The notes under the pieces were generated by a model. It did not search any database and had not been told where the DNA came from. It worked only from the letters and a program-made list of their open reading frames with translations. From Acholeplasma sp. OttesenSCG-928-E16 (GTDB lineage: Bacteria > Bacillota_I > Bacilli_A > Acholeplasmatales > Acholeplasmataceae), in contig JAJDIT010000003.1 in the NCBI GenBank assembly GCA_030266845.1, positions 1 to 64,000 on the forward strand: DNA of 64,000 nt, given 5' to 3'. Positions 10,181 to 58,889 of this stretch are shown piece by piece. How positions within the stretch are numbered: the first letter of the stretch is position 1; each line of letters opens with the position of its first letter. The translations under genes were made by a program, and so were the position numbers.

Positions 10181-12253
10181 TTATAGAGATCCCCTTCTTT
10201 TGATTATTTCATCAGCAATTGTCTTTGGAGTTTTTTCATAGTGATTAAATTGCATAATGAACGTTGCTCTTCCTTGTGTGTTTGAACGAAGCGCTGTTGC
10301 ATATCCAAACATTTCAGATAGTGGTACAAATGCTCTAATAGCAACTGCATTCCCTCTACCTTCTTGTGATTCTAAGCGTCCACGACGACTTGTTAAATCT
10401 CCAATTACGTTTCCTACGTAGTCATTTGGTGTTACTACTTCAACATCCATAATTGGTTCTAATATTGCCGGAACACATTTATTTTTAGTTTCTTTTAAAG
10501 CCATCGATGCGGCAATTTTAAATGCCATTTCAGATGAGTCAACATCGTGATAAGAACCAAATGTTAGGGTAGCCTTTAAATCAACGATTGGATATCCAGC
10601 GATAATCCCATTGTTTAATGCTTCTTCTAAACCTTTTTGAACTGCTGGAATATATTCTCTTGGAATAACTCCACCAACAATCTTATCAACAAATTCAAAT
10701 CCCTTACCAGGGTTTGGTTCAAACTTAATAACAACATGTCCGTATTGACCACGACCGCCTGATTGTCTAACAAACTTGCCTTCTATTTCAGCAGGAGCGG
10801 TAATAGTTTCACGATATGAAACTTGCGGTTCAGCGACATTGGCTTCAACCTTGAACTCTCTTTTCATTCTATCAACAATGATATCCAAATGGAGTTCTCC
10901 CATTCCAGCGATAATAGTTTGTCCAGTTTCCTTATCAGTATATGCTTTAAAAGTTGGATCTTCTTCTGAAAGTTTTTGTAGGGCAACTGACATTTTGTCT
11001 TGGTCATTCTTTGTTTTTGGCTCAATTGCGATATTTATAACTGGTTCAGGGAAATTCATAGACTCTAAAATAATATCGTCATTAACTCCCGCTAGTGTAT
11101 CACCGGTTGTTGTATCTTTTAAACCAACTACAGCCGCTATTTCTCCAGCGAAAACTTCTTTAATCTCTTCTCTGTGATTAGCGTGCATCTGCAAGATTCT
11201 ACCAAATCTTTCTCTTTCTCCCTTAGTAGTATTTTTAACATATGATCCAGAAGTGACCTTTCCAGAGTAAACTCTAAAGAATGTTAGCCTTCCAACATAA
11301 GGGTCAGTCATAACCTTAAAAGCTAAAGCGGTAAATGGCTCATCATCACTAGGATGTCTTATAACTTCTACACCCTTTGAATTTTCACCAATAACAGCGG
11401 CAATATCAGTCGGTGCAGGTAAATAATCTATTGCAGCATCTAATACTAGCTTGACCCCTTTATTTTTAAAGGCAGAACCAACTAACACTGGGAAGAATTC
11501 AACATTTAGTGTTCCTTTTCTAATTGCATTTTTGATCATTGCTGTTGGAACTTCTTCACCTTCTAGATATAGCATCATTAGTTCTTCATCAAAATCAGCA
11601 ATTGCCTCTATCAATTCAGTTCTTTTCTTTTCTACTATATCTTTTAATTCAGATGGGATTTCGATTTCTTCGTAATTCTCATCAGCATTACCATCAAAAT
11701 GATAGGCTTTTCTTTCAATAATATCTATGATTCCATTGAATCCTGACTCTGCACCAATTGGCCATTGAATTGGGTATGCTTTTACTCCCAATCGATTATG
11801 GATTGTTTGAATTGCGTGTTCAAAGTCAGCACCGATTTTATCCATTTTGTTAACAAAGACTATTCTTGGAACCATATATTCTGTCGCTTGACGCCAAACC
11901 GTTTCAGTTTGTGGCTCAACACCAGCTTGTGCATCTAAAACTGTAACCGCTCCATCTAGAACTCTTAATGATCTAGACACTTCAACAGTGAAGTCTACGT
12001 GACCGGGAGTGTCAATAATATTAACTCGATAATCCTTCCAGTAGGCAGTTGTAGCGGCCGAGGTAATTGTAATACCTCTTTCTTGTTCTTGTTCCATCCA
12101 GTCCATTTGAGCGGACCCATCATGGGTTTCACCAATCTTATGGATTTTACCAGTGTGATATAGTATTCGCTCTGTAGTTGTTGTTTTACCGGCATCGATG
12201 TGTGCCATGATCCCGATATTACGTACTTTATTTAGTGGTATATCACGAGGCAT
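10181..12253 (-). CDS. fusA: elongation factor G
   Basis: At 690 aa it has the five-domain EF-G layout and drives translocation of tRNA and mRNA. G motifs are Ala-His-Ile-Asp-Ala-Gly-Lys-Thr (about 17-24), Asp-Thr-Pro-Gly-His-Val-Asp (about 81-87) and Asn-Lys-Met-Asp (about 135-138). Domain IV contains Gly-Arg-Gly-Gln-Tyr-Gly-His-Val. AAGGAG lies ahead of the ATG. It follows rpsG by 22 bases in the conserved str order. Confidence 0.99.
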
Positions 12254-12275
12254 ATTTTTTTATTCTCCTTATTAA

Positions 12276-12746
12276 TTAAAAACGATAATGAGCGAACGCT
12301 TTATTAGCTTCTGCCATTCTATGTACATCATCACGTTTTTTCACTGCTGAACCTGTTCCGTTTGCAGCATCCATTATTTCTTTAGCTAGTCTATCTTCCA
12401 TTGTTTTTTCATGGCGAAGTCTAGCATATTGAATTAACCATCTTAAACCTAAAGTTTGTTTTCTTTCTGGTCTAACTTCTACTGGTACTTGATAGTTTTG
12501 ACCACCGATTCTTCTTGATCTAACTTCTAATACCGGCATAATGTTATTCATCGCTTCATTAAATACATCAATTGGTTCGCGTCCACTAGCTTCTCTGATC
12601 TTCTCAAACGCACCATAAAGAATTGATTGAGCAGTTCCTCTTTTACCATCTAACATAATTGTGTTAATAACACGTGTCACTAATTTAGAATGATAAATTG
12701 GATCTGGTAATACATCTCTTTTTGCAACATGTCCTTTTCTAGGCAT
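12276..12746 (-). CDS. rpsG: 30S ribosomal protein uS7
   Basis: This 156-aa protein matches uS7 from Met-Pro-Arg-Lys-Gly to the C-terminal Ala-Phe-Ala-His-Tyr-Arg-Phe, with [14 protein letters not shown] in the middle. It is the primary rRNA binder that nucleates the 30S head. A GGAAGGTG ribosome site lies in the 31-base gap after rpsL. Confidence 0.98.
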
Positions 12747-12777
12747 GAGTATTCACCTTCCTTTTTATATTTTTAAA

Positions 12778-13188
12778 TTATTTAGGGCGTTTTGCGCCAT
12801 ATTTTGATCTTGCTTGTTTTCTATTAGCAACACCGGTAGTATCTAAGGTTCCACGAATAATATGATATCTAACTCCTGGCAAATCCTTAACACGTCCTCC
12901 ACGGATTAACACAACGCTATGTTCTTGTAAGCTGTGTCCAATACCTGGGATATACGCTGTAACTTCAGTTCCGTTTGATAATCTAACTCTCGCATATTTT
13001 CTTAATGCTGAATTAGGTTTTTTAGGTGTCATAGTTGTAACACGAGTACATACACCACGCTTTTGCGGAGAATTGAAACTACTTTGTCTTTTTTTAAGTG
13101 TATTTAATCCATATCCTAATGCTGGTGATTTAGATTTATACCCTTTGTCAGTTCTTCCTTTTCTTACTAATTGTTCTATCGTTGGCAT
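12778..13188 (-). CDS. rpsL: 30S ribosomal protein uS12
   Basis: This 136-aa protein is uS12, which lies at the decoding centre and helps control accuracy. The segments [10 protein letters not shown] and [10 protein letters not shown] carry Lys at both positions where streptomycin-resistance changes usually occur, so the sensitive form is seen. It is the first gene of the str operon, with its own consensus promoter and a leader of about 100 bases. Confidence 0.98.
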
Positions 13189-13260
13189 CTTCTTTCCTTT
13201 CTAACACACATCCTGGTGTTTCTTTTTTATTATTTTGGCTTAGTAAAGCCACCTTTTCTC

Positions 13261-13293
13261 AATAAAAATATGCTGTTTTTCTTCGCAGCATAT
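13261..13293 (-). terminator. terminator of the surface-protein operon, overlapping the str promoter
   Basis: An eight-base-pair stem ATATGCTG/CAGCATAT with a ten-base loop (13268-13293) is followed on the minus strand by TTTTATT. The str transcript should start near 13289, inside this stem, so the hairpin would form only in RNA coming from the upstream surface operon. Confidence 0.75.
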
Positions 13294-13295
13294 TC

Positions 13296-13324
13296 ATTAT
13301 ATATTTTTTTATTTTTAATGTCAA
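13296..13324 (-). promoter_or_regulatory. consensus sigma-A promoter for rpsL-rpsG-fusA-tuf
   Basis: A perfect TTGACA (13319-13324), 17 bases of A/T and a perfect TATAAT (13296-13301) lie on the minus strand. This makes the str operon independent of the genes inserted upstream. The leader can form GGCTT/AAGCC and AACAC/GTGTT hairpins of unknown role. Confidence 0.9.
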
Positions 13325-13341
13325 TAATTAAATAATTATTT

Positions 13342-14070
13342 TTAGGTTTGCGGGGCATCACTAGATAAAATAACCTTAACAAATTCTAGTTGACTATAGC
13401 TTTTTCCTTGAAGGGATTGATATTCATCATAAGTTATTAAAACTCCATTTTCTATCAAATTATCGAAAGTTTCAAATTCAAATCTTATAAAATAGTCTCT
13501 TTTGATTTTATGATCTGGGGTTTGGTTTAAAGGTGAATAAACAATATCTTCATAGGTTCCACCAAAAATGATATTATCTTCTAGCGGATCAAGTGGTGGG
13601 ATTAGATTTCCTAAATAAAGTTTAGAGGAATATCCGTTATTGTCACTTCTATCAAAAGTAACGCTTAATGTCTTTACGAATAATTCAGATAAAAGCGAAC
13701 TATCTAAATAACCTATTGTATATCCATCAACATCCCCAAGGTTTTCTATTTCAATTTTCCATGTGAATATTTCTGTTGGCATCATATCTATGAAATTCAG
13801 TTTTAAATTTTTATTATTTCCTTCTTCATCTTGTTCTTGCTGAACTAACGTGAAAACTCTAGTACCGTTTACAATGTCTAGGTAACCATCTTTATTTTTA
13901 TCATTTCCTTTATATAAAGTAATTCTTGACTCCACTCTAGCGGTTTCAAAATATACCGGGTTTGTATTTATCGTTGTAACGAAGGTGAACCAAGCAAAAA
14001 CAAGTGAAAAAAGACTTAGCGCTATTAATACACAAGATGAAATTATCGTTGGTATGTTTTTCTTTGTCAT
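13342..14070 (-). CDS. surface protein with SipW-type-like signal segment (242 aa)
   Basis: The N-terminus has Lys-Lys, a hydrophobic run (about residues 8-28) and the motif Phe-Ala-Trp-Phe-Thr at its outer end. This resembles the signal of TasA/camelysin proteins cut by the SipW peptidase. The rest is polar and predicted mostly beta. It includes an Asp/Lys calcium-loop-like stretch (Asn-Lys-Asp-Gly-Tyr-Leu-Asp, near 60) and Glu-Ile-Glu-Asn-Leu-Gly-Asp-Val near 108, like the N..G segments of camelysin-type beta-sandwiches. It is the last of four genes and its ATG overlaps the previous stop (ATGA). It may be a structural subunit outside the membrane. The family is not firmly identified. Confidence 0.7.
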   Translation of the reverse strand: MTKKNIPTIISSCVLIALSLFSLVFAWFTFVTTINTNPVYFETARVESRITLYKGNDKNKDGYLDIVNGTRVFTLVQQEQDEEGNNKNLKLNFIDMMPTEIFTWKIEIENLGDVDGYTIGYLDSSLLSELFVKTLSVTFDRSDNNGYSSKLYLGNLIPPLDPLEDNIIFGGTYEDIVYSPLNQTPDHKIKRDYFIRFEFETFDNLIENGVLITYDEYQSLQGKSYSQLEFVKVILSSDAPQT

Positions 14071-14825
14071 GATATCCTTTCCGCAGTAATCATAATACTT
14101 TCAACATGAAATGTTTTGTGTGATAAAACATTAATTGGAATATCGACATTTTGTAATCCAGTAAAAGTTAACGCAAATATGAAAGTAACTTCTCTTTGCC
14201 TTATATCTTTTGGGTTCCAATTATCATATCCAACTATTTTTGTTAGTGGGGCAATCATAGAGTCTTCGCCTTTGACAAATATTCCATTTCCTTCTGATAG
14301 ATTATTTTCATCAGGATCTATTGAAGTTCCTTTTTCATTAAAATAACATTCAATAAAAGAAACTCTAAAGGCGTCACACATATTAAACTTCTTACCATCA
14401 ATAACGTAGTCATTCCCTTCTACTATATCACCGTTTTCATCAATTGACTGTTCCTTGAAAAAAGGCCCTCCATTAAAATTTCTAATCTTAATCTCGAGGT
14501 TTTTGGATTCATCTGTTGCCGCACTTAGCGTTACAACAAAATATATTTTTTCACCTAATAATAAACCAATAATGGAATCTTCAATCGTAATTGGGACATT
14601 TGGCCCAGTCCCTCTTTGATATTCAAAAAGTGGATCGCTATCCAGTTCATTTCGATATACAATAAATTCGTCGACATAAATCGACTCATCATTATACACG
14701 CTTAAAGATACTGAGGCACTTGTATTATCATCAAGCGACATCCATGCGAAAACAGCCGTTAATAAAATAACTAGCGTAAATAATGTTGATAAAAATGCCG
14801 TTATTAACGTTCCTTTATTTCTCAT
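14067..14825 (-). CDS. surface protein with SipW-type-like signal segment (252 aa)
   Basis: A basic start, a hydrophobic segment (about 7-27) and Phe-Ala-Trp-Met-Ser-Leu-Asp-Asp form an export or anchor signal like that of its downstream neighbour. The remaining 220 residues alternate short hydrophobic and charged stretches, as in a secreted beta-sandwich. One Cys is visible near 141 and another near 151. The protein overlaps both neighbours by ATGA, so it should be made in step with them. It resembles the 242-aa protein in layout more than in sequence. The function is unknown; a minor fibre subunit or adaptor is a guess. Confidence 0.7.
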   Translation of the reverse strand: MRNKGTLITAFLSTLFTLVILLTAVFAWMSLDDNTSASVSLSVYNDESIYVDEFIVYRNELDSDPLFEYQRGTGPNVPITIEDSIIGLLLGEKIYFVVTLSAATDESKNLEIKIRNFNGGPFFKEQSIDENGDIVEGNDYVIDGKKFNMCDAFRVSFIECYFNEKGTSIDPDENNLSEGNGIFVKGEDSMIAPLTKIVGYDNWNPKDIRQREVTFIFALTFTGLQNVDIPINVLSHKTFHVESIMITAERIS

Positions 14826-17800
14826 GCTAAATACCTACTAACTTTATATTCGATAATATAATCTATATTTTGGGTTTGTATTGATGAAAAAATTGATTCA
14901 CGGTAAGCAAAAACATATGTAAACTTAACATAAAAGGATTCCGTAGAATATATATCATCGCCATCATAATAGCCAAATGTTAGTGTATCTGTTCCGGTGA
15001 AACTACCAAGAGTATTTGATTTTTGTGTAATACCATAATCTGATGGGGTAGTACTAAAGCTTTCATAAACGCTGGTAATTGAAACTCCATAGGCAAGTCG
15101 CTCCTGGTATTCAATTGACATTAATGAAGATACAATAGCATCTGTTGCTGATGCTCCGCTATAGCCATCGGTGGCATTAACGTCTCTAACAATTACGGAT
15201 GCTCCATGTAATATCGCAAAAGTAGCTCGATTAAGTGCCCCCTTAGTTCCATATATCTCATTGACGATACCAGTAAATAAGTTATTAATCTCATCTCTAA
15301 TAAATGATGGTAGAGAAGTTATATTGACTACAAATTCATTATTATAAACATGAACCTCTTTTAAAGATGGAAAATCATCCAATCCATCGAATCGATAGAT
15401 TTGATTATCATTTAATAATAATACCTCTAAGTTTGATAGTTCACTTAAAGTAACAATGAAATTATTATTACCATTTGGGAATCCAAAATCACTAACTGAT
15501 ACCGCATCTCTCAATCCATTAAATGATAAATCTAAATATTTCAATCCGTTCATTTTACTAATATATTGCATATCATTAATAGTAATTCCCGAATTTTTCA
15601 TATAAAGCTTTTCAACTCCGGTTAAATACTCTAATCCTTTATATGGAATCATCGAACTATCATTTTCAAACATCAGGCTTTCTGTATATCTACTTAATCT
15701 AGATGTGATAATAAAAGTCTCTTGTGGGGAATATGTTTCATCGCTATGATAGATTCCAAAAATATACTGATATAAAGAATGACTTGTAAATGCTTCATTA
15801 TTACCATATCTTAAAATTCCTGGAACGATAATTTTTGATGAAAATGGCTCCTCTTGAAAGGTTGTAAGGTTAATATTATTGTCCTTTTCAAAGTAGTGAT
15901 CATATTTAAAAGTTACATATGAATCTTTTACCGGGATTTTTGTTTGATCTATATCAATAAACCACAAACCAGATCCACCATATATTAAGTCATACAAATC
16001 AGTGGCTTCTCTTTGTTCATTAGATGCTAATCCGTTATATTCATCAACTGCCATATTAAAGTCAGAAATACTATTAAAAATGATTGTGTTATTTTTCACT
16101 ACCCTTAGTGTAATAAAGGTATTTTCAACCTCGTTTCCGTCTTCATCTATAATATCTATTGAAAAGCGATAAATCGGAAAATCAGCCCCATAGGTAAATG
16201 GGATATAAAAATCATTATATGTATAGCCGTTAGTCCTAGTCACTATTTCTCTATTAAAGTAAGAATAGTAAGGTTGAAAACGCGATACACCGACTGGATT
16301 ATTCTCATTTTCAATATACCTAATTGGAACACTAACTGTTACGTTTGCTGGTGTATAGGCATTTTCAAAATAACAGGTAACATTTAAAAAAACCTTTTGT
16401 AAAATGTCTGGTCCATCCAATCGATTCGGATTAACTTTTAATACATTATTATCAATATAATATGTTTTTTCTGAATTGTTAATAATTTCATATGACAACC
16501 CAACCAACCCATATGAAGAATGTTTTAAAGAATTAATTGGTAGTTCAACCGAACTAAATTCGTTTTCTACCCCAACTTCTTTTGTTAACCTACTTATTTC
16601 TATAACACTATTAAACAAATCGGCAACTATTAAATTAGCATATGTGAAATTATCAACAATCGATTCTTCTGATTTACCAACAACCGGTATATCTATCCAT
16701 TCGGTTTTGTTATTGTAATAAACTCTTATTATTTCAACGCTTTTATTTAGATATAAGATATAACCTAAACTGATAGTTGAGGTCTCGCTTTGATAGTACA
16801 TATCCTCAAAAAGTACTTTATCGGTATCACTTGAGGATTCTAATTCAACCCCATCTTTATCTAAGAGGGTGTATTCAAAAACACTATTAAAGTAATCATT
16901 TTTATAGGGTAGCATAAACGCACCATTAATGGCGTATGCTTTCCTTGTTTCATTAGTTTGTTCATCAATAACCACTTCACTAAATGAATACTTTTCAAAA
17001 GATTCAGCGACCACTGCCGCACCAGCTTTATGGTAATCAGTATCCGCAACAACAAATACATCATAGGTCCTACTTTCTATGGTCCCTTGATATTCAACAG
17101 TCACCTCTAAACTCACCTTAAGTGTCTCGTCGACTTGGGCTACTTTCCCATCGTTTGATACAACGCTTTGATTGCTAGATGAGTAACTATATAACACTTC
17201 GTGATTATAAAAATTAAGCGGAAAATCTAAATCGTCATAAACATATAAACAGTTTCTTTTTTCAATGAATTGATCACTGTAAAAAGGTGAAAAACGACCT
17301 ATTAGTATCTGATAATTTTTATCTAATAAAATCGTATTTATGTCTGCCATTTTTACATTAGAGGCTTTTATTTCAAAAAGTCTGAAAGCCAATTCAAAAA
17401 CCGTTGACGAATCACTCGATTGGGTGTTTATTGAAACATTATCCAAAGTCAAGGTCTCTGATAAAACAATCACAGCATTAGGAGTATTGATATCAATTAC
17501 GTTTTCATTTAAATCGGTTATCGTTCCATTATAGATCGCATGTGTTCCAATATAATTATGGTAGATTGAAAACTTAAAACCATTTAGGTTAAATTGATGC
17601 TCGTTTAGATTAATGTGATAGTCACTTTTCATAACCAAATCATTAGTTAATTTTAAATCCGCCATCAACTTAAGAGTTTTTCTTTCTTCACTGACTAATT
17701 CAGGGTTATTAAAGGAGTTTGTATCTATCATATAATAAGCAAATTCTTCAATAGAATTAATTTCTATATATGTTTTTTCACTTGAATCATATTCAATATT

Positions 17801-17908
17801 AGAAGAAATTCTACCCGCTATATCTTGAAAGTATGCGTAAAAAACAGTTCCAAAAAACACAATATGCAAGACTATTAAAATAGAAATCAAAAATCTCCTT
17901 TGTTTCAT
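14822..17908 (-). CDS. large surface protein with beta-solenoid, Ig-like and leucine-rich regions (1028 aa)
   Basis: A membrane segment (about 7-27) ends in Tyr-Ala-Tyr-Phe-Gln-Asp, the closest match in this locus to the SipW-substrate pattern A-Y-F-x-D. Residues 45-180 look like a right-handed beta-solenoid with an Asn-Leu-Asn-Gly rung. Near 240-290 there is an Ig-like unit with Ser-Ser-Ser-Asn-Gln-Ser-Val-Val. Residues about 755-860 hold four or five leucine-rich repeats (Leu-Lys-Tyr-Leu-Asp-Leu-Ser-Phe-Asn and Leu-Glu-Val-Leu-Leu-Leu-Asn-Asp-Asn). There is no C-terminal anchor. GGAGG lies ahead of the ATG, 14 bases after the 1641-aa gene. The domain mix suggests adhesion or matrix building outside the cell. 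Confidence 0.75.
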   Translation of the reverse strand: MKQRRFLISILIVLHIVFFGTVFYAYFQDIAGRISSNIEYDSSEKTYIEINSIEEFAYYMIDTNSFNNPELVSEERKTLKLMADLKLTNDLVMKSDYHINLNEHQFNLNGFKFSIYHNYIGTHAIYNGTITDLNENVIDINTPNAVIVLSETLTLDNVSINTQSSDSSTVFELAFRLFEIKASNVKMADINTILLDKNYQILIGRFSPFYSDQFIEKRNCLYVYDDLDFPLNFYNHEVLYSYSSSNQSVVSNDGKVAQVDETLKVSLEVTVEYQGTIESRTYDVFVVADTDYHKAGAAVVAESFEKYSFSEVVIDEQTNETRKAYAINGAFMLPYKNDYFNSVFEYTLLDKDGVELESSSDTDKVLFEDMYYQSETSTISLGYILYLNKSVEIIRVYYNNKTEWIDIPVVGKSEESIVDNFTYANLIVADLFNSVIEISRLTKEVGVENEFSSVELPINSLKHSSYGLVGLSYEIINNSEKTYYIDNNVLKVNPNRLDGPDILQKVFLNVTCYFENAYTPANVTVSVPIRYIENENNPVGVSRFQPYYSYFNREIVTRTNGYTYNDFYIPFTYGADFPIYRFSIDIIDEDGNEVENTFITLRVVKNNTIIFNSISDFNMAVDEYNGLASNEQREATDLYDLIYGGSGLWFIDIDQTKIPVKDSYVTFKYDHYFEKDNNINLTTFQEEPFSSKIIVPGILRYGNNEAFTSHSLYQYIFGIYHSDETYSPQETFIITSRLSRYTESLMFENDSSMIPYKGLEYLTGVEKLYMKNSGITINDMQYISKMNGLKYLDLSFNGLRDAVSVSDFGFPNGNNNFIVTLSELSNLEVLLLNDNQIYRFDGLDDFPSLKEVHVYNNEFVVNITSLPSFIRDEINNLFTGIVNEIYGTKGALNRATFAILHGASVIVRDVNATDGYSGASATDAIVSSLMSIEYQERLAYGVSITSVYESFSTTPSDYGITQKSNTLGSFTGTDTLTFGYYDGDDIYSTESFYVKFTYVFAYRESIFSSIQTQNIDYIIEYKVSRYLA

Positions 17909-17922
17909 TAATCCTCCACTTT

Positions 17923-20900
17923 TTAAATAACAGGTAACTTAACTGTAAAGTATCTCGTATAGGTGCCCCCGTTATAATTAACTGTTACCGAAATGATTCC
18001 CTCTCCTTCTTCATTTGTATCTGTTCTTTCAATCCGATAACCATTTGCTCCAGATGGTATAATTCTAATTTTTCCAGACTCAACATTCCAAGATAAGGTT
18101 ATCCTTTCGGCATCGTCTGTAATAATATTAGTAGGTAATTGTAGATATTTAGAAGAAATGGTATTTATTTCTTTTAACAAGAAACAAAGCGTTAAGGCAT
18201 CTATATCGATCTCATCAATATCTGGTTCATATATAAATTCATAACCGTTAAATTCATATAAATAAGTTGGCAGTAAGTTTTTGTTGTTTTTGTAGGCAAA
18301 ATAAAGTCTAGCAAAAATCGGTTGATTATAGTAAAACTCAATGCCTGTTCCCGTGATGTTTAGATATTGCAAGATCCCAGAATTAATTTTTAACAGTTCC
18401 GTCATCTCATTGACTTTTGGATTACCTCTAATATCTAAGTATTTTAAATTGATGAGTCTTTCCACTTCTAAGATATTCGAAATGTTAGTATATTTAAACT
18501 CTAACTTTTCAATCGTTTCAGACAAATATCTAGCAACTATATTTAACGTTTTATCGCCAGAATCATTAGCAAACAAATCATTAGCGCTATTTCCGATTGC
18601 CGAAAACTCTCTTAGGTTTACAAAATAACTAAGAATTAATAATGGATTTTCAGTTGAAAAATCTAGTTTATCTACTGGTAAATAAAAGAAACTATCCTCT
18701 TCTTCTCCTAAAATGTTATAACTTAATATTCTTTCCAAATATTCGATAATTAAGCAATACTCACATTTATTTATTTCTAAATCATCGTGTTCATCTAAGG
18801 TTCGATCATAATTACTTAAATTTAAAACGTTACTTAGTTCAGCTATCACGTCATCATCACCCTCAAAAAATTTAAGGATTGCCTTATATTCCTGTGAACT
18901 TATCGTATATAATCCATCTGAAACATTATTGAAAACCGATGGATCTATATTGCTAATGATATCGCCGATTTTGATAGATGAATTTATCTGTCCAACCCCT
19001 CTTGCCCAATCAAAAATCAGTGTAAACTCATCTAGATTCTCAACAAAAGTATAAATCAAAGCTTTTTCAGCAACCCCTTGACTATCAAAAGAACCACTTA
19101 TCGTCATATCGACTGTCTTAATAAGTGTTGATAAAGAACTCTCAAAATAACTTTGATAAGCGGTGTTATTATATCGTGCACTAGTATTTAAGTAGTGATA
19201 AATAACCGTATATTCAGTATAAGAAATCGTGGATGAACCATCAGATATTTTGGTATTCATACCTTCAAAAAGACCACCAGTTTGAAACAAATACGAATTA
19301 GCACCATATACATCTTCAAAATAGACGATCTGTCCGTTATTGTTTTGCGCCCACCCTAAAATGGTATTTAAATCACTTAATATTGATACCGCATCATACC
19401 CATCATGGATTGTACGATATGTGTTAATCGAGGCGATCATTGCATTTCTTACAGTATCACTTAGATTGTATGAATTTGTAAAAATCCCCACTTTTACTAA
19501 ATTATCTGCAAAATAATCCACGTTATAGGTCGTATCATATCCATTACTTGCAATGTAGGCAGCTATTACTTGTTGTTCTGTTGTTGCAAAAGAACCGACC
19601 GCCGACCCAAAAGTTGGACTAAACCATTCATTTTTTGTTTCTGAGTAGCTATCAAGACCAATTGATCCTAAAAAAGACATCATCGAATCATTAGAGAGTG
19701 CTGAAAGTCCCAAACCAGACTTTAAGTAAGAAATTAAGGAAGTCCCTTGTGTTTGTTGTCCACCTGTTCCTTTGGAACCAATATGAACTGCCCATGCCCA
19801 TAGCTGATTAAAGATTGGATCTGTCGAAGTTGTTGTTCCATTACTAGTTGAATATGTAAATTGATAGGTTAGTTTCATGGTTTCTAAGAGATTGTCATTT
19901 TTTGTGATTATTGTTTGCCAAACCGGGTAATAATCCATATAGCCCATTGACCAAACATACGCCAAAATCACCTCTTCTTCCAAAGAAGAAATCGATGAGG
20001 TTCCATCTGAAACATTTGATGAATAGTATTGATAATAATTTTCGTTTGAACTAGGAATAACTGAATTTTCTACTAAAGTATTAGCTGCAACCGCCGTGTT
20101 GGACTTTGCCCAAGCGATTATTTTGGCGTAATTGCTGTCTAAAAACACACTTTCTAGACTAGTAATATCACTATCAGAAAGGAGATTATCTTCTACAAAT
20201 ACGTACTTTCTAAATTCCGCTTCAAAAGCTGGATATTTTTCACAGTATTTTAAAATAACCGCAATCTCTCCATCGCTAAATGTTTCTGATCCATCTGATG
20301 TAATCCAAGAAACGCTATCATCTATATAACTAACACTACTTACTGGTGTCTTTATTTCAGACCCCTTCGCCCATGCAATAAGATTAATAAAGTCGGTAAG
20401 GGATTGTGAATCAATATAAAAATCACTGTTCCCTAATTCTAAAATTAATTTTTTGCACATATTTATATCATGCATAAGAATATAATCATCCAATGCGTAA
20501 ACATCGGTTGAAACCAATTCAAATATTTCCTTTCTAACCCCACTTATAATTGAATACGCCGGTTTTGGTGTTACCTGTTGCATTACTTGAATCTTGATAG
20601 TATAAAACAACTCATTAAAATTATTAAAGCTTGAATTACTCTTTGTTACTGCTGCCGGTGTATCAAAATATAAAATCTTATACCCCAGCCTACCTACATC
20701 CTCTTCACTTGATAAATATAATTCTACTCCAATTGGTATTCTTTCTTCATTTGTTGTAAGGTTGCTTAAATTAACAATCGCCTTGTTCCCATTTTCAATG
20801 CTAGATAATATTTCCTTATCATCAACTAATACTCCGGTATCATCATATCTTAAGAAATATTTGATTGTATATCCCATATAATCCGTGATTAATGAAAAAT

Positions 20901-22848
20901 CGCCATTTTCCATCGAAAAACCATGTTCAGCCCTAGTAGCTAAAACATTTGCTAAAATATCCACTTCATCAAGGTTCATCTGTAGATAATCATAAATTCG
21001 ATTTAGAAGATCCTCGTTATTTGATAGATTGATTTGAATCGGAATAACCCCCTCTTTGGTGTTTCCAGATTCAAAAGTCACCTTTATATTAACCTCCGCA
21101 TAAGTCATAAAAGTAATATCACTTAATGCGACGATCGGTACGTTAACTGAATCATTTAAAAGTTGTGAAACAAAAATATAATAATATGAGGTATCGTAAC
21201 TGTATTCAATCTCCTCAATCATCAGATCCTTACCGGCTGTGTATAGAGATGAACGATAGTCATATTGATGGCCATAATGAACAATTGGAAGATACTCATG
21301 ACTCTTTGAAATATCTGTATTAGGAGTTCCATCAAAAATATCGTTTAAATGAATTGTTCCAATTCTTGCTAGTAGGTATTGAAACTTCATATCCTCATTT
21401 TGTTTTAAAACCTTGATTAAAAATGATTCCACATAGACTGCCCCATTTACAGATATTTCAGCAACTAGTGTAATCTCTCCTTGCGCCGCATCAGATAAAA
21501 CACCATTATTATCCATTTGAGATCCATCTGAAGACCACCAAGAAATTATTGTATTTTTTCCTTTTATTACGGTTGGTAAAAATAAGTCGAAAGTGACCTC
21601 TGGTTTTATTCCTTCTGTTAATGTACTATAAAAAACAATGTGCTTTAATTCATTATCTAAAATATCTGAAATAATTGTGTAGTCATCACGCCCAATAACT
21701 TTAAGTGGATGAAGATACTCATCCGTTTCATTGCTAATTATTATTTCTAAAATATAGGTTTTATCAACACTTGCAATATTTTCTAAGAGATAGTTAGTTG
21801 TAGTTATTCCATCAACTGAAATATCAACAAAATCTTTATATAAATAATATTCACCAAGTAAATCGATTTTTTCTGTGGACCCGCTTTTGATTTTAGGGAA
21901 ATTATCCACTCGTTTTGATATTCTATCTATTAAAACATCTTCATTAAAAACAGTCACATCAACATAATCGCCATATGATAATACATTATCTCCTAAAGTT
22001 AAAAAAGCTGATTCATCTGATAGACTAATTGCCCCAAGACCAGTGTAAATTACTTCTTTATTAGAGCTATTTATTCTTAAATCGCCCTCAACATTCACCG
22101 TAAATCCATTTAAATCAAGAGTATTACCCATAAGTTCAAGTTCACATCCACAGGAAATGGTAACATCTTTGTCTAGCAAGATGCTATCAGATAATAAAAT
22201 AGTCTTATCAACTTGATAATAATTAATCTCCTCGATTGCTTCATGAAAATCTGTTAAATCCTCTACGATTGAATATTTTTGAGCGTTAATATTTTGTTGG
22301 TAGCAAATCATATTAAGCTTAATCTCTGAAGCCTGATATTCATTATCTAAAATAGCGTTATGCAACTCAAACCTAATATCATAGGTTTCTAATTTCTCAT
22401 TTTCTAAGGTGGAATTATCGATTAAAAACTCCATGTCTATTTTTGTTTCAACGAAATTTCCCTCATAGTCTTTATCCATGAAATTACTTAAAGTTCCAAT
22501 AAATTGTCCATTAACATATATTAAGATACAATCTTCAAAATGAGCAACTTTGTTACTATCTTTTAAGACATCTAAAATATCAATTGAAAAATAGTAAACT
22601 AGTGGCTTATCTGAAGAGTTTTTGATTATAAATGAATACTCCTGGTAATCACCAGGGTTAATTAAAGGAACATTAAGTTCGGTAATTTGATTTTCTATTT
22701 CACCTGAGTTTAATATTTCAATATAATTAAACTGTCCATCTAAGTCAGTCTTAAAAGTGAACCCTGATGCATACAAAACAAACATCGACATCAAAGCGGC
22801 TATACTTACTTTTAATAAAATCACTCTAAAACTATATCGTAGTTTCAT
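17923..22848 (-). CDS. giant camelysin-like surface protein with Trp-Ala repeats, Ig-like and leucine-rich regions (1641 aa)
   Basis: The start at 22848 has AGGAA about six bases upstream; an earlier codon at 22872 has none. After a membrane segment (about 8-28), residues 30-190 look like TasA/camelysin: Asn-Pro-Gly-Asp, then a beta-sandwich with Ile-Ile-Lys-Asn-Ser-Ser. Residues 205-280 resemble a beta-solenoid (Asp-Leu-Asn-Gly), and 400-485 an atypical bacterial Ig domain with Ile-Ser-Trp-Trp-Ser-Ser. From 815 to 1340 there are five degenerate helical repeats built on a hydrophobic-Trp-Ala segment followed by Asp-Gly-x-x-x-x-Ser-x-x-Glu. Leucine-rich repeats follow (1400-1525), then a C-terminal Ig-like domain (1575-1641). 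It is first in a four-gene operon. Function is unknown; an extracellular scaffold is likely. Confidence 0.75.
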   Translation of the reverse strand: MKLRYSFRVILLKVSIAALMSMFVLYASGFTFKTDLDGQFNYIEILNSGEIENQITELNVPLINPGDYQEYSFIIKNSSDKPLVYYFSIDILDVLKDSNKVAHFEDCILIYVNGQFIGTLSNFMDKDYEGNFVETKIDMEFLIDNSTLENEKLETYDIRFELHNAILDNEYQASEIKLNMICYQQNINAQKYSIVEDLTDFHEAIEEINYYQVDKTILLSDSILLDKDVTISCGCELELMGNTLDLNGFTVNVEGDLRINSSNKEVIYTGLGAISLSDESAFLTLGDNVLSYGDYVDVTVFNEDVLIDRISKRVDNFPKIKSGSTEKIDLLGEYYLYKDFVDISVDGITTTNYLLENIASVDKTYILEIIISNETDEYLHPLKVIGRDDYTIISDILDNELKHIVFYSTLTEGIKPEVTFDLFLPTVIKGKNTIISWWSSDGSQMDNNGVLSDAAQGEITLVAEISVNGAVYVESFLIKVLKQNEDMKFQYLLARIGTIHLNDIFDGTPNTDISKSHEYLPIVHYGHQYDYRSSLYTAGKDLMIEEIEYSYDTSYYYIFVSQLLNDSVNVPIVALSDITFMTYAEVNIKVTFESGNTKEGVIPIQINLSNNEDLLNRIYDYLQMNLDEVDILANVLATRAEHGFSMENGDFSLITDYMGYTIKYFLRYDDTGVLVDDKEILSSIENGNKAIVNLSNLTTNEERIPIGVELYLSSEEDVGRLGYKILYFDTPAAVTKSNSSFNNFNELFYTIKIQVMQQVTPKPAYSIISGVRKEIFELVSTDVYALDDYILMHDINMCKKLILELGNSDFYIDSQSLTDFINLIAWAKGSEIKTPVSSVSYIDDSVSWITSDGSETFSDGEIAVILKYCEKYPAFEAEFRKYVFVEDNLLSDSDITSLESVFLDSNYAKIIAWAKSNTAVAANTLVENSVIPSSNENYYQYYSSNVSDGTSSISSLEEEVILAYVWSMGYMDYYPVWQTIITKNDNLLETMKLTYQFTYSTSNGTTTSTDPIFNQLWAWAVHIGSKGTGGQQTQGTSLISYLKSGLGLSALSNDSMMSFLGSIGLDSYSETKNEWFSPTFGSAVGSFATTEQQVIAAYIASNGYDTTYNVDYFADNLVKVGIFTNSYNLSDTVRNAMIASINTYRTIHDGYDAVSILSDLNTILGWAQNNNGQIVYFEDVYGANSYLFQTGGLFEGMNTKISDGSSTISYTEYTVIYHYLNTSARYNNTAYQSYFESSLSTLIKTVDMTISGSFDSQGVAEKALIYTFVENLDEFTLIFDWARGVGQINSSIKIGDIISNIDPSVFNNVSDGLYTISSQEYKAILKFFEGDDDVIAELSNVLNLSNYDRTLDEHDDLEINKCEYCLIIEYLERILSYNILGEEEDSFFYLPVDKLDFSTENPLLILSYFVNLREFSAIGNSANDLFANDSGDKTLNIVARYLSETIEKLEFKYTNISNILEVERLINLKYLDIRGNPKVNEMTELLKINSGILQYLNITGTGIEFYYNQPIFARLYFAYKNNKNLLPTYLYEFNGYEFIYEPDIDEIDIDALTLCFLLKEINTISSKYLQLPTNIITDDAERITLSWNVESGKIRIIPSGANGYRIERTDTNEEGEGIISVTVNYNGGTYTRYFTVKLPVI

Positions 22849-22872
22849 TACTTTCCTACTTTCAAAAATCAA

Positions 22873-22959
22873 AAACAGGTCGCAAATAACTGCAACTGTT
22901 TCTCGTTATAGCAACAATCCTCAAGCTTTGCACGACAATTATCTATAATTGTCAAGCTC
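22873..22959 (-). ncRNA. structured 5' leader of the surface-protein operon
   Basis: RNA starting near 22959 can fold into two strong elements. The first is GAGCTT/AAGCTT (22954-22959 with 22923-22928) stacked under the perfect arms GACAATTAT/ATAATTGTC (22934-22953), with a GTGCA bulge. The second is GTTGC-AUAAC paired with GUUAU-GCGAC (22879-22915), around a 14-base loop. Together they fill almost all of the leader. The motif GTGCAAAGCTTGAGG slightly recalls the 3' half of class I c-di-GMP riboswitches, but the GGCAAAC half and the GAAA loop are missing. The role is unknown. Confidence 0.4.
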
Positions 22960-22965
22960 CAAGTA

Positions 22966-22994
22966 ATTTTACTACATATAATTTTCACTGTCAA
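22966..22994 (-). promoter_or_regulatory. sigma-A promoter of the four-gene surface operon
   Basis: Perfect TTGACA (22989-22994), a 17-base spacer and TAAAAT (22966-22971) lie on the minus strand, about 118 bases before the first ATG. Confidence 0.85.
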
Positions 22995-22999
22995 TTTTT

Positions 23000-23017
23000 T
23001 CACTATTATAATAGTGA
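23000..23017. promoter_or_regulatory. 18-bp perfect palindrome beside the -35 box
   Basis: TCACTATTA/TAATAGTGA is perfectly symmetric and ends five bases upstream of the -35 box of the minus-strand promoter. The position suits a dimeric activator or repressor. No matching regulator gene is in the window. Confidence 0.5.
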
Positions 23018-23065
23018 GTAATTATTACACATTCTTTATTACTTAACAATCATTTCATCCATCGT

Positions 23066-23113
23066 GATAGCGTAAAATGGGGTTAATAAGGGCTATTTCG
23101 CATTTTAACTATC
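23066..23113. repeat. interrupted inverted repeat in the divergent control region
   Basis: GATAG-CG-TAAAATG (23066-23079) is mirrored by CATTTTA-A-CTATC (23101-23113) across a 21-base spacer: twelve pairs with one mismatch zone. The rest of the roughly 420-base gap between the divergent genes holds the two promoters, the leader, the attenuator and a 14-bp palindrome GTTTTTATAAAAAC at 23150-23163. No gene is seen in it. Confidence 0.5.
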
Positions 23114-23185
23114 TCAAAGAATAACCTGATTCTCCTAATTCGTGAAAACGTTTTTATAAAAACATCCTAAATTTTCCCATATTAT

Positions 23186-23213
23186 TTGAATCCTTTGTTT
23201 TTAATGGTAAAAT
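23186..23213 (+). promoter_or_regulatory. promoter of the plus-strand surface genes
   Basis: TTGAAT (23186-23191), 16 bases and TAAAAT (23208-23213) preceded by TGG form an extended -10 promoter. Transcription should start near 23220. Confidence 0.65.
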
Positions 23214-23228
23214 AGAAGATATTTTTTT

Positions 23229-23255
23229 ATGTATAAGTACTTATACATTTTTTTA
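23229..23255 (+). terminator. attenuator-like hairpin before the plus-strand genes
   Basis: A 20-base perfect palindrome ATGTATAAGT/ACTTATACAT (23229-23248) is followed directly by a run of T and then by the ribosome site AAAGGGG. It lies about nine bases after the expected transcript start. It could act as a transcription attenuator or as a DNA operator; the sequence does not decide which. Confidence 0.5.
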
Positions 23256-23270
23256 AAGGGGTATTATTAA

Positions 23271-23968
23271 ATGTTAGGTGAAAATAATAAAAAAAATAAA
23301 ATATTACCAACACTTATCGCACTAGTTCTATCTATATCTAGTATTTTTATTTCTGTGATGGCATGGATGACATTATCTGGTGTATCTTCGGCTGACCCCA
23401 TTATTATAGGTACTACCTCAAAAGAGATTACTATAGAACGATCTTTCATTGTTAATGCTACTTACACTTCATATAACACCCAATATGATGTTAACTTAAA
23501 AGATTATGATCCATATATCATGGCAAACAATGTTGACTCTAACGCAATAATGTTTATAGAAATAAGCGTTAGTGAAATTGAACGACTTTATTTAAGTTTG
23601 ATACCAAAATCAATATTAGAAGATGAGATTGGTTTGACGGATGTATGTTATATGCAAATATTTAAAGGGATCTTGCAGTACCACTGACAAGTAATCTCTT
23701 TTCGTATTACTCTACACTATTTGCTAATATAAATGACTATCCTATTATCCATGACTTTACATTAATTGATGGGAAACTTGGAAACACTATCGATTTTGGA
23801 ACTTTTGACCCTAATACTAAAACTACTTTTTGGATTGTAATTAACATTGATTATTATGTTGATAAGATTGCCAATTTCATTGATACATCAAGCAGTTCTC
23901 ACAATCTATCAGATGTCAATAACTGGGACTTTAGGAGCAATTTTATCCTCACCCTATATGGAGGTTAA
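23271..23968 (+). pseudogene. surface protein with SipW-type-like signal, one-base frameshift (about 232 aa)
   Basis: The frame opens with ATG at 23271 after AAAGGGG. It has a Lys/Asn-rich start, a hydrophobic segment and Val-Met-Ala-Trp-Met-Thr, as in the two small proteins of the divergent operon. It reaches a TGA at 23685. From about 23669 the -1 frame is open to TAA at 23966-23968 and continues the same kind of sequence (Leu-Ala-Val-Pro-Leu, later Trp-Ile-Val-Ile-Asn-Ile), ending just before the next gene. One base appears to be missing in the TTTAAAGGG stretch (23661-23669). This may be a true mutation, an assembly error or frameshifting. No classical slippery heptamer in the right phase is seen. 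Confidence 0.7.
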
Positions 23969-23969
23969 G

Positions 23970-25964
23970 GTGCGTAAATTCATACGGATATTAAAAATAT
24001 CTACCCTTGTTATAATTAATTTATTTGTAATCTATACCTTTATTGGCTTAAACGGGTATGTTTTTGGTTGGTTTGCTCCAGCTATTAATCAAGATTCCAA
24101 CATCGACGGGAAAACAACTGACCCTTATTTCCATCGTGGAGATGGTTCTTATACTGATCCTTTTACGATTACTAGACCTGTTCACTTATATAACCTAGCT
24201 AAACTACAGGAAGCCGGAGCATTTGGTAATCATAGTTATTATTTTCAACTTGGGATCGAGGTGTTAAATAACCAAATAGTAGCTGACCCAATCTATACTA
24301 TGGATGAAAACGGAGTTGTTAGGCCAGGTGAAAATTATTCATATTATGTATATGGGAATAATGAAGATTTTCCTTCCTCTACTGTTTTAGATATGACAGA
24401 TTTTATTAAAAACGGCGAGGATTTTATTATCCCAATTGGTGGCTCATTAATTACAAAAGGGGTAGATGGTCTTGATTTATTACCTGAAAATTACTATCCT
24501 TCTGAATTTTTAGGATACTTTGAAGGTAATCGAATAACAATCAAAAACCTAAAAATTCAAGCTAATGAAGATTTTTGCCATGTTGGGCTATTTGGAATAA
24601 TTGGGGCCCCTTCTTTAGTTCAAAATTTTATTTTAGATTCACCAACAATAACAACCACTTCTACTACTCCTTTACAAATGACTACCGAACATTTAGCTAC
24701 CACAGATCCTGATTTTCATAATTTTATTGGATTCTTATCCGGATACACAGCAGGAGGTATGTTTAATATTGGAGTCTATAAGGGAGATATGGTATTATCG
24801 TCTGTTTTATATCACTCAAGGTTTTCTTGGGTAGGAAGTGCCGCTGCTGAGCTTAGCAATAACGGGGATGTTTCTGGTAATATTTTAGATACCATCATCG
24901 AATGGGGTTCTCTAGTTACAATTATGGGAGTTGTCGGGCAAACTTGGAATAATTGGAAGAGTTCTACTGATAAAATTTTATCTACCGATTATAGCACTAC
25001 CTTAAGTAACTGTTTCACAGATTCTAATCTTACAAATGATCCTTATAATAAAGATGTCTTTGAAATAGTAGCACCGATAGTGATGCAAAAAATTAACTCT
25101 GCCGGATTCACTTCAAATGGCTCATATAATTTTCCTATGATGTCATATGATTTATCAGGAGCCAAAACAAATGAAATAGTTTTAGCTAGTGCTCCACCAA
25201 AATATGATGAAACCATAACTACTAACCACGTTTACCCAAACGGTAATTCTCTATCAACTGTTTTCCAAGCTACGGGTGATTCTAATACTTTAGCTTCTGG
25301 TAAAGGCGGAGTCCGATTTACAGTTGATTATGCCGGGGACCTTCTGCTAACTTATTCTTCTCCAAAAGCATCAACACTTGGGATTTATAAAATGAACACT
25401 AACGGTACTACATATTCTCCTTATCCAAACGCTGACTGGACTTTTGGAACTGGAAAAGTAGCAAATCCAGTTTTAAGTAATGTTCGATTTGTTGATAATT
25501 CAGCAACTGCTACTGCCCAACCATACTCTCCAACCACTAACAATGGCTCAGTAGTTACTTGTGTCGTTAGAGTTAAAGAAGCCGGTACTTACATTATTGG
25601 TACTTACTCAGGTGAACCGATTGCCTTTGGTTATACTAGATTTATTATTGATAGTTCCCAAGGAAATACATCCGGAACATCAGATTCAGGTAGCGTTGAT
25701 TCTATATATTCAGTTGATTTTACGTATTTATTAAATAATGAACTTGTTTTTCCTAGTTCAACAACTTTTGCATTATCAAGAGTAAACGTATATTTTCCAA
25801 ACACTTCAACTGGTGTTACTGTACCAATAACCCTTTATTATAGGCGAGAGGCGATTAATTCTATTGCGGTCTTTAATCTCTATGCACCAAGATTTAATTT
25901 AGTATATTACACTTCAAAATACGGAAATGGTACTCTAAATATGCTAAATGATCCTCCAACATAA
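23970..25964 (+). CDS. GLUG-like surface protein (664 aa)
   Basis: The start is a GTG at 23970 with GGAGG five bases upstream; the longer in-frame reading from 23847 overlaps the previous gene and lacks a ribosome site. Residues 8-32 are hydrophobic and end in Phe-Gly-Trp-Phe-Ala-Pro, a variant of the locus's signal motif. Next comes a GLUG-type region (about 55-240): Asp-Pro-Phe-Thr-Ile, Tyr-Phe-Gln-Leu, Gly-Tyr-Phe-Glu-Gly-Asn-Arg-Ile-Thr-Ile-Lys-Asn-Leu and Gly-Leu-Phe-Gly-Ile-Ile-Gly. The rest is Thr/Ser/Asn-rich with probable beta-sandwich parts. GLUG repeats occur in secreted adhesins. It is second in a two-gene plus-strand unit and ends before a terminator shared with rpoC. Confidence 0.78.
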   Translation: MRKFIRILKISTLVIINLFVIYTFIGLNGYVFGWFAPAINQDSNIDGKTTDPYFHRGDGSYTDPFTITRPVHLYNLAKLQEAGAFGNHSYYFQLGIEVLNNQIVADPIYTMDENGVVRPGENYSYYVYGNNEDFPSSTVLDMTDFIKNGEDFIIPIGGSLITKGVDGLDLLPENYYPSEFLGYFEGNRITIKNLKIQANEDFCHVGLFGIIGAPSLVQNFILDSPTITTTSTTPLQMTTEHLATTDPDFHNFIGFLSGYTAGGMFNIGVYKGDMVLSSVLYHSRFSWVGSAAAELSNNGDVSGNILDTIIEWGSLVTIMGVVGQTWNNWKSSTDKILSTDYSTTLSNCFTDSNLTNDPYNKDVFEIVAPIVMQKINSAGFTSNGSYNFPMMSYDLSGAKTNEIVLASAPPKYDETITTNHVYPNGNSLSTVFQATGDSNTLASGKGGVRFTVDYAGDLLLTYSSPKASTLGIYKMNTNGTTYSPYPNADWTFGTGKVANPVLSNVRFVDNSATATAQPYSPTTNNGSVVTCVVRVKEAGTYIIGTYSGEPIAFGYTRFIIDSSQGNTSGTSDSGSVDSIYSVDFTYLLNNELVFPSSTTFALSRVNVYFPNTSTGVTVPITLYYRREAINSIAVFNLYAPRFNLVYYTSKYGNGTLNMLNDPPT

Positions 25965-25986
25965 CTTAAGTAATAAGTAAGATAAC

Positions 25987-26021
25987 AAAAAAGATGTAAG
26001 GTGAACCCTCACATCTTTTTT
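25987..26021. terminator. bidirectional terminator between convergent genes
   Basis: Arms AAAAAAGATGT and ACATCTTTTTT flank a GGT/ACC-containing loop. The A and T runs on both sides let it work for the plus-strand surface gene and for rpoC on the minus strand. Confidence 0.9.
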
Positions 26022-26029
26022 AATTATCT

Positions 26030-29000
26030 TTAGTATTGATAATCGTTATAAAAATTATCATCCTCTAGTTCTTCTATCTCAGCGTCTACTTCATCATAGT
26101 TAAAGTATTTATCCGATAGAATACCTGTACCGGCTGGAATTAAGCCACCGATAATAACGTTCTCTTTTAGTCCGTGTAATTCATCCACCTTACCTCTAAT
26201 AGCAGCATCTGTTAAAATTCTAGTTGTTTCTTGGAATGATGCAGCTGATAAGAATGAGTCTGATCTCAATGAAGCTCTCGTAATACCAAGTAATAATGGT
26301 TTACCAACTGCTAGTTTGCCGCCATTTTTAAAGGCTTGACGGTTTGCTTCCTTAAACTCAGCAATTGAAACTTCAGTTCCTGGCAGTAATGTTGTATCTC
26401 CTTCTGATAAGACTGTTATTCTTCTTAACATTTGGCGAACTATTACTTCGATGTGTTTATCAGATATTTCAACCCCTTGAGCACGATAGACTTTTTGAAC
26501 TTCTTCTAATACATATTTTTCCGAAGCTTCAGCTCCTAAGACCCTTAGTAATTCTTTTGGATTGATAGAACCAACTGTTAGCTTTTGACCAGCTTTTACC
26601 ATTGCCTTATTCTCGATTAAAATCTCAACATTAGCATCAATTGAATACTTATGTTCAATTCCTTTATTATCGGTAATGATTATTCTGTCTCTTGTCTTAG
26701 GAATAGATGCTCTACCTTCATATTCAGTAATGACTGCTGCTCCTTTTGGATTACGAGATTCAAATAACTCTTGGATACGAGGAAGCCCTTGTGTGATATC
26801 TGAAGTTGATGCCACCCCACCAGTGTGGAACGTTCTCATCGTTAACTGCGTACCTGGTTCACCAATTGATTGAGCAGCGATAACACCAACTGCTTCACCA
26901 ACTTCAACCGCTTCGTTAGTAGCAAGGTTTCTTCCATAACACTTAGCACAAACACCATGGTCTGAATTACATGTTAATACGCTTCTAATTTCAACTTCTT
27001 TAATGCCTATTACCTTTATTCTATCAGCCATATCTTCATCAACTAATTGATCTTTTAATCCGATTATTTCTCCAGTGTTTGGATCAACTACATTTTTGTT
27101 TAAATAACGACCAACGATTCTATCATATAAAGGTACAACAATTTTTTCGCCATCTTTAATAGCTTGCATCACAACACCCTTATCAGTGTTACAATCATCC
27201 TCAACAATAATCACATCTTGAGAAACGTCAACTAATCTTCTTGTTAGGTAACCAGATTCAGCTGTCTTTAAGGCTGTATCGGTTGAACCTTTTCTCGCAC
27301 CATGGGTCGAGATAAAGAATTCAGAAACCGTTAGTCCTTCTCTAAATGAAGCTAATACTGGCACTTCAATAATATCCCCTTTAGGGTTATTCATTAATCC
27401 ACGCATTCCAGACAACTGAGCAAAGTTTGATGTTTTACCACGGGCACCTGATTTAGACATGATGTATAAGTCATTGTCTTTACCAAATTCATCCATAATG
27501 TGATCAGAAATATTCTTGTGGACCTGTTGCCACTTAGAAATAACTAATTTCTTTCTTTCTTCTTCGGTGATCATTCCCATTTCAAACCACTCTTCAATTT
27601 CAGCTATTTGATCTTCTGTGGCTTTAATTAATTCCTTTTTCTTAGAATATACATTAATATCAGCAGCTGATACCGTAATACCAGAAACAGTGGAATACTT
27701 GAAACCTAAATCCTTTAGTTTATCAAGCATCTTAGATGTTTCACTGATGTGTAAATCCTTAAATACTTGAGCAATAATCATTGATAGGAATTTATTGTTA
27801 AATGGCTCAGGTATCGGAATATTCTCTAATTCAAGATAAGGATTAGATCCTTTTTTAATGAAGTAAATGTCAGGTGTTCCATCACTTAGATTTTTAGCTG
27901 TTGGTTCTTGAAGATATGGAAATGAATCTGGTAGGATTCGATTAAATATCATCTTTCCTAAGGTAGTTACTAAGTATTTATTTTCTTGATCTTCAGTAAA
28001 GGCATCACCCAAACATTTTGGATCAATAATAATTCTTGTATGTAATCCAATTTCTTCTTGATCTAATGCCAATTCAGCTTCTTCAAAACTTGAGAAGAAC
28101 TTACCTTGGTTTCTATTGATATAGGCATTACTTTCGTTTTTCTCGATTGCGTCAATACCATAAAACTTAGCATCTTTTGAAGCTTCAATTGTTAAGTAAT
28201 AATTACCTAAAACCATATCTTGAGATGGCGTAACAACTGGTTTTCCATCCTTAGGATTTAGAATATTATTTGATGCAAGCATCAATAATCTAGCTTCTGC
28301 TTGTGCTTCGTTTGATAGTGGAACGTGAACTGCCATTTGGTCACCATCAAAGTCAGCGTTAAACGCTGGGGTAACTAATGGATGAAGACGAATTGCTTTT
28401 CCATCAATTAATTTAGGTTCAAATGCTTGAATACCTAGTCTATGTAGTGTTGGGGCACGATTTAATAATACTGGATGTTCCTTAACAACCTTCTCTAAAG
28501 CTTGCCATACATCATCACCCATTTTTTCATATCTGTTATTAGCATTTTTCTTATCTTTGCCTGAATCTCTTTGAAGTTCTCTTAAAACAAATGGTTTAAA
28601 TAACGTAACCGCCATTTCTCTTGGAATTCCACATTGATACATCTCTAAATCTGGTCCAACAATAATAACTGAACGACCAGAATAGTCGACACGTTTTCCA
28701 AGTAAGTTTTGACGGAAACGACCTTGTTTCCCTCTTAACATATCTGATAATGATTTTAAGTGTCTATTTCTTTCAACAACTGCTTTTTTACCACGTTTAG
28801 CATTATCAAATAAAGAATCTACCGCTTCTTGAAGCATACGTTTCTCATTTTTAATAATTAATCTAGGTGCCAATTGTTCTTTTTGTTTTTTCAAACGGTT
28901 GTTTCTATTTAAGATTCTACGATATAAATCATTTAAGTCAGTAGTTGCGAAACGACCACCATCAAGCGGAACCATCGGTCTTAAATCTGGTGGAATAACT

Positions 29001-56703: not shown

Positions 56704-56705
56704 CT

Positions 56706-58508: not shown

Positions 58509-58516
58509 ATTATCAC

Positions 58517-58885: not shown

Positions 58886-58889
58886 AATT

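Follow-up and report, generated by a model that had tools for sequence, protein, structure and literature searches.

Between rpoC and rpsL in the window analysed here, a stretch of 64,000 nucleotides from Acholeplasma sp. OttesenSCG-928-E16 (contig JAJDIT010000003.1), six genes, designated P1 to P6, form a locus for predicted surface proteins. We consider it probable, at roughly 0.62, that this locus encodes a multi-component, membrane-exported surface assembly of the TasA/camelysin kind with giant leucine-rich repeat (LRR), beta-solenoid and Ig-like partners, in a host predicted to be wall-less. The gene set, its conservation, the signal type, the fold resemblance and the absence of a peptidase from the contigs are what the analysis itself shows. 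All six open reading frames (ORFs), which an initial annotation of this DNA had described as a divergent arrangement, were confirmed in a rpoC-rpsL gap of 12.8 kb, spanning 13188 to 26030. The gap holds two divergent gene sets, P4-P3-P2-P1 (four genes, minus strand) and P5-P6 (two genes, plus strand), as follows:

P1, 13342..14070, minus strand: 242 aa; N-terminal transmembrane segment ending VFAWF, DxNxxGxxD loop, predicted beta-sandwich; putatively TasA-like
P2, 14067..14825, minus strand: 252 aa; N-terminal transmembrane segment ending VFAWM; conserved LxPGE-like motif
P3, 14822..17908, minus strand: 1028 aa; transmembrane segment ending FYAYF; beta-solenoid-like and Ig-like segments in common with P4; LRR at about residues 766-883
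P4, 17923..22848, minus strand: 1641 aa; transmembrane segment without the aromatic motif; putatively TasA-like N-terminal domain (NPGD); beta-solenoid/Ig-like segment; weak LRR
P5, 23271..23968, plus strand: about 232 aa if in frame; transmembrane segment ending VMAWM; frameshifted in the assembly between about 23666 and 23687
P6, 23958..25964, plus strand: 668 aa; transmembrane segment ending VFGWF; RGDGSYTDPFTI..HLYNLA..LQ region in common with P6 of the relative G119

It is known that an aromatic residue at position P2' makes TasA a poor substrate of LepB and a substrate of SipW instead (PMC10269814). Five of the six N-terminal hydrophobic segments in the locus end in [AG][WY][FM] (AWF, AWM, AYF, AWM and GWF), as the initial annotation had noticed for most of them, and thereby carry the aromatic residue right after a terminal Ala or Gly that was taken as the mark of a SipW-substrate signal. 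A motif scan covered the window, the remainder of the 102-kb contig on which it lies and the loci retrieved from relatives. Of the 95 ORFs there with one N-terminal hydrophobic segment, 48 had [AGS][WY][FYMVLI] at the segment end. Each of these 48 lies either within the locus or one of its orthologs, or in a small gene next to a SipW-type peptidase gene, where the motif is typically TYAWF or TYAWY, and none was found elsewhere in the scan. P2 of the window fell outside the filter for a single transmembrane segment, yet it carries AWM. This placement of the motif argues that the signal pattern is not due to chance, and the earlier suggestion of a SipW-substrate-type signal is thus borne out.

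The fold predictions point in the same direction. Models were built with AlphaFold2 from alignments of 8-9 sequences and reached predicted local distance difference test (pLDDT) values of 68-74. The model of P1 (pLDDT 73.9) consists of a helix and a beta-sandwich, and its top match among 350,542 PDB chains was the TasA fibre 8aur, with an E value of 3.4e-3, a probability of 0.97 and a template modelling score (TM-score) of 0.32. The N-terminal domain of P4, which holds the NPGD sequence, was also modelled as a beta-sandwich (pLDDT 68.3), and against the same chains TasA 5of2 came first, with 5of1 chains among the best matches (probability 0.99-1.00, TM-score 0.35-0.47). The comparison with TasA that the initial annotation had called for therefore placed TasA at the head of the list for both models. 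Common descent of P1, P2 and the P4 N-terminal domain was considered at the level of sequence profiles and rejected, the alignment being limited to the signal segments; because P1 and the P4 N-terminal domain are unrelated by profile, their models provide two independent pointers to TasA. These results suggest, short of proof, that P1 and the P4 N-terminal domain are TasA-like beta-sandwich subunits, and P2 and P5 are probably subunits of this kind as well.

The larger proteins add regions of a different character. An LRR match was obtained for P3 with PF12799 (9e-10, 38.9 bits against a curated cut-off of 27), and by profile this region matches internalin-type LRRs in the PDB, including those of internalins A, B and H; the corresponding match in P4 is weak (15.1 bits). 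Ig-like aBig_2 matches in P3 and P4 stayed under the curated cut-off, and GLUG, named by the initial annotation, was not detected; the LRR of P3 is solid. P3 and P4 have a beta-solenoid-like plus Ig-like segment in common (hhalign 96.6%, 7e-10), and P6 of the window is homologous to P6 of G119 (3e-9). In the P1 orthologs, inspection by eye revealed, downstream of the signal, a loop of the form D-x-[ND]-x-[DN]-G-x-x-D, with the outer D, the G and the D invariant, which looks like a calcium-binding site. Searching PDB sequences with the P1 and P2 profiles gave nothing useful. The likeness to internalins and other LRR adhesins is confined to the LRR region of P3; in contrast to them, P3 has an N-terminal membrane segment and no wall sorting, and its overall architecture and the gene set differ.

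The distribution of the locus was analysed with a P3 profile, and full-length or long matches were counted as orthologs; short matches, mostly aBig_2-like and from the single-protein search, were not counted. Among 160 genomes of the order, orthologs were found in nine other genomes, and a sample of 395 genomes from the class yielded none beyond the order. All nine carriers belong to one other family, the Anaeroplasmataceae (G045 among them being CALVBA010000011.1), whereas the window genome belongs to a different family of Acholeplasmatales, in which it is the only carrier of a full-length P3. The order P4-P3-P2-P1 is kept in six relatives (G038, G119, G114, G132, G120 and G137), and a partial core is present in G145 (P3-P2-P1) and G045 (P4-P3-P1). 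The other half of the locus is variable: in G119 and G114 the layout is again divergent, a large P6-like gene coming after genes for small AWY/GWY proteins; in G038, P5/P6-like genes adjoin the core in a single direction; and in G132 and G137 the genes at this position are unrelated. This pattern indicates a four-gene core to which P5 and P6 are accessory. Several further features were noticed at these loci: the P4 ortholog of G137 is split into two ORFs (13625-18495 of the fetched stretch) by a frameshift or a true split, giant genes adjoin the locus in G038 (3934 aa) and G120 (3531 aa, with an AYF-type signal), and additional AWY/GWY genes are present in G120.

The co-occurrence of the gene set in relatives, which the initial annotation had proposed to search for between rpoC and rpsL, was thus found, but its location is not conserved. 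In the relatives the locus lies elsewhere, and among the sampled Acholeplasmatales rpoC is directly adjacent upstream of rpsL only in G050, G024 and G030, with other genes at this site in the rest. The rpoC-rpsL position is therefore incidental. In the P3 tree the window protein groups with those of G045 and G137; in a ribosomal tree of small size the window genome branches deeply, with weak support. The GC content at third codon positions (GC3) of the locus genes is within the range of the neighbouring housekeeping genes, and together with the grouping in the P3 tree this argues against a recent arrival of the cluster. Both an ancient cluster that was lost many times and an ancient transfer fit these data.

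A processing peptidase was searched for in the window genome, which is 86% complete in 34 contigs. None was found in the locus, in agreement with the initial annotation, and the check for a SipW-type enzyme elsewhere in the genome, which the annotation had recommended, was likewise negative in the contigs. The SipW profile of the relatives gave only C-terminal, non-catalytic matches there. On the other hand, LepB (PF10502) is present in 9/9 relatives with the locus, and TIGR02228, the SipW-type family, scored over the cut-off in 8/9 of them, with the Ser/His positions of the ER-type enzymes retained. TIGR02228 was found in 143 of the 160 genomes of the order, while some nearly complete genomes of the window's own family are also without it.

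The SipW genes of these relatives adjoin genes for an AAA+ protein (NKD motif, transmembrane segment and coiled coil) and a DUF2357 protein. In G045, G137, G119, G145, G120, G114, G132 and G038 the AAA+ proteins of this cassette are at least 60% identical, and several TYAWF/TYAWY surface genes often lie alongside. The cassette adjoins rplM-rpsI in G045 and G145 and lies about 7 kb away in G137; on the window contig rplM-rpsI is intact and the cassette is not there. The AAA+ protein was absent from the window genome at its 86% completeness. Its profile matched 99 of the 160 genomes of the order, some of these matches probably being other McrB-like genes. The AAA+ gene occurs in all but one of the genomes with the P locus, which is weak evidence, since the gene is common in Anaeroplasmataceae anyway. 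It is possible that all the peptidases and the AAA+ protein were missed purely through assembly gaps, although this is not the likeliest explanation. McrBC-like GTPases associated with signal peptidases that are likely pilus assembly factors have been described as CoCoPALM systems (PMC11090510), and the composition of the relatives' SipW/AAA+/DUF2357 cassette matches these systems. The features in common are the SipW-type peptidases, the NxD-type AAA+ protein with transmembrane segment and coiled coil, DUF2357 and the motif-bearing small proteins. In contrast, such a system was not found in the window genome, and in the relatives it is a separate locus, tied to P1-P6 only by signal type and co-occurrence.

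Compared with the tapA-sipW-tasA operon of Bacillus subtilis and the camelysin CalY of B. cereus, the locus has in common small surface proteins, predicted here to be beta-sandwiches, whose SipW-type signal has an aromatic residue directly following the cleavage region; in both cases an operon codes for several proteins and genes overlap. The models match the TasA structures 8aur, 5of1 and 5of2 best. It differs from tapA-sipW-tasA in that neither locus nor genome contains sipW, no sequence-family match is detectable, giant LRR/beta-solenoid/Ig-like partners are added, and the host is expected to have no peptidoglycan. According to the literature, the Acholeplasmatales have no peptidoglycan wall, although mur genes are retained in some Anaeroplasmataceae (PMC10868615). 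The window organism is therefore expected to be without a cell wall, as the initial annotation had supposed. In short, the locus resembles the TasA/SipW system but lacks two of the features that were tested, namely a match to a curated sequence model and a peptidase encoded by the same genome.

From these properties we infer export, cleavage in the relatives, assembly, and a role in adhesion or in a matrix. Each protein would be exported by Sec through its N-terminal hydrophobic segment of SipW-substrate type, P4 being excepted from the motif. The small beta-sandwich subunits (P1, the P4 N-terminal domain and probably P2 and P5) would carry the structure, and P3, P4 and P6 would contribute large LRR, beta-solenoid and Ig-like adhesin regions. 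Cleavage of the segment in the Anaeroplasmataceae relatives is probably carried out by a SipW-type (ER-type) peptidase whose gene lies elsewhere. TasA fibres assemble by donor-strand exchange through the strand that directly follows the signal peptide (PMC9674648), and cleavage in the relatives may free a strand for donor-strand assembly of this TasA-like type. Because no peptidase is detectable in the window genome, its proteins may remain membrane-anchored; the uncut segment would then probably hold them as a membrane-tethered coat, unless the enzyme lies within the missing 14% of the genome. A more specific version seems unlikely to us: in the Anaeroplasmataceae, P1-P6 would be the cargo of CoCoPALM, with two SipW-type peptidases and a membrane GTPase processing and assembling TasA-like fibres, and the window lineage would still have the cargo but no longer the machine, leaving a membrane-anchored coat.

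The gene models and control sites of the locus were also refined. P3/P2 and P2/P1 overlap by 4 bp each and P5/P6 by 11 bp when the end of P5 is restored, and P4 and P3 are spaced by 14 bp. The initial annotation was right about overlapping stops and starts, but the fixed stoichiometry that it drew from them does not follow. The best start of P4 is ATG 22848, giving 1641 aa, and P6 starts at ATG 23958 rather than at TTG 23847. P5 is frameshifted: ORF 23271-23687 contains its first 138 residues, and the second half lies in another frame with a TAA stop at 23966-23968. A programmed frameshift was considered, and no canonical slippery heptamer was seen in the sequence; an assembly error or a pseudogene is more likely. 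The following control sites were found:

Promoter-like site, 22966..22994, minus strand: 11/12 consensus match, upstream of the P4-P3-P2-P1 operon; consensus match only
Terminator hairpin, 25986..26022, no strand assigned: between P6 and rpoC, flanked on both sides by A and T runs; likely bidirectional
Sigma-70-like promoter, 13296..13324, minus strand: perfect 12/12 consensus match for rpsL-rpsG-fusA-tuf, separating the rpsL operon from the locus; consensus match only

The promoter-like sites and the P6-rpoC hairpin suggest that the locus is transcribed separately from the genes on either side. No Rfam match was obtained for RNA elements in 12000-27000. Elsewhere in the window, the genes at 54946-61738 form a run that by eye resembles an NADH-linked [FeFe] hydrogenase, with HydA-, NuoF- and NuoE-like members and a PHP-domain protein.

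Several observations weigh against the proposed assembly. Neither SipW nor LepB (TIGR02228, PF10502) was found in the window genome within its 86% completeness, and no locus protein matches the TasA or camelysin models of Pfam or NCBIfam. The TM-scores to TasA (0.32-0.47) are under 0.5 and come from shallow alignments, so the fold resemblance falls short of proof. The aromatic motif is found in only five of the six proteins, the segment of P4 ending in ASGFTF, and by profile P1, P2 and the P4 N-terminal domain align at best in the signal segment. The carriers are a minority of the relatives, most genomes with SipW being without the locus, and the P5 frameshift could be a sign of decay. A rival explanation is that the proteins are ordinary adhesins anchored by an uncleaved signal, the aromatic motif being no more than a feature of the membrane interface and the likeness to the TasA beta-sandwich a generic one. 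The missing SipW and LepB, the modest TM-scores, the adhesin-like LRR and Ig-like segments and the P4 segment agree with such an explanation. We nevertheless regard it as rather unlikely, because the motif is restricted to the locus and to SipW-adjacent genes, two sequence-unrelated models each rank TasA first, and the relatives with the locus have SipW-type peptidases.

Alternatively, the assembly may work in the window organism as in the relatives, a SipW-type peptidase and probably the McrBC-like cassette being present but missed by the assembly. The incomplete genome and the wide occurrence of TIGR02228 in the order make this a doubtful but serious possibility; against it, LepB, SipW and the AAA+ partner are absent all together, the rplM-rpsI site, near the cassette in three relatives, is intact without it, and some nearly complete genomes of the same family also have no TIGR02228. 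Decay of the locus in the window lineage, with the peptidase lost, P5 broken and the rest to follow, would account for both the frameshift and the missing enzyme. It appears quite improbable, since no break is seen in the remaining five frames over 11 kb, the genes are closely spaced and a promoter-like site is present, and a one-base assembly error could explain P5. A recently acquired mobile or defence island beside rpsL would fit the patchy distribution, with the window genome as the sole carrier of a full-length P3 in its family, and the varying location among relatives. This is very improbable, given the host-like GC3, the lack of plasmid or phage matches to P3, the P3 tree following host groups as far as resolved, and the fact that no tRNA and no integrase-like gene was noticed in the window. 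The TasA/camelysin-kind surface assembly is therefore the reading that we prefer.

TasA-type fibres are best known from walled Bacillaceae, and in our literature search no paper linking SipW or TasA with the Acholeplasmatales group was found. If the proposal is correct, a conserved TasA-like gene set in an order expected to have no peptidoglycan would reveal how assemblies of this kind can be anchored in the absence of a wall. The SipW peptidases beside McrBC-like GTPases, together with the co-occurrence of the P locus, suggest a testable role for CoCoPALM, which has been named but not explained. The locus would also be a candidate surface coat or adhesin system for the Anaeroplasmataceae and their relatives.

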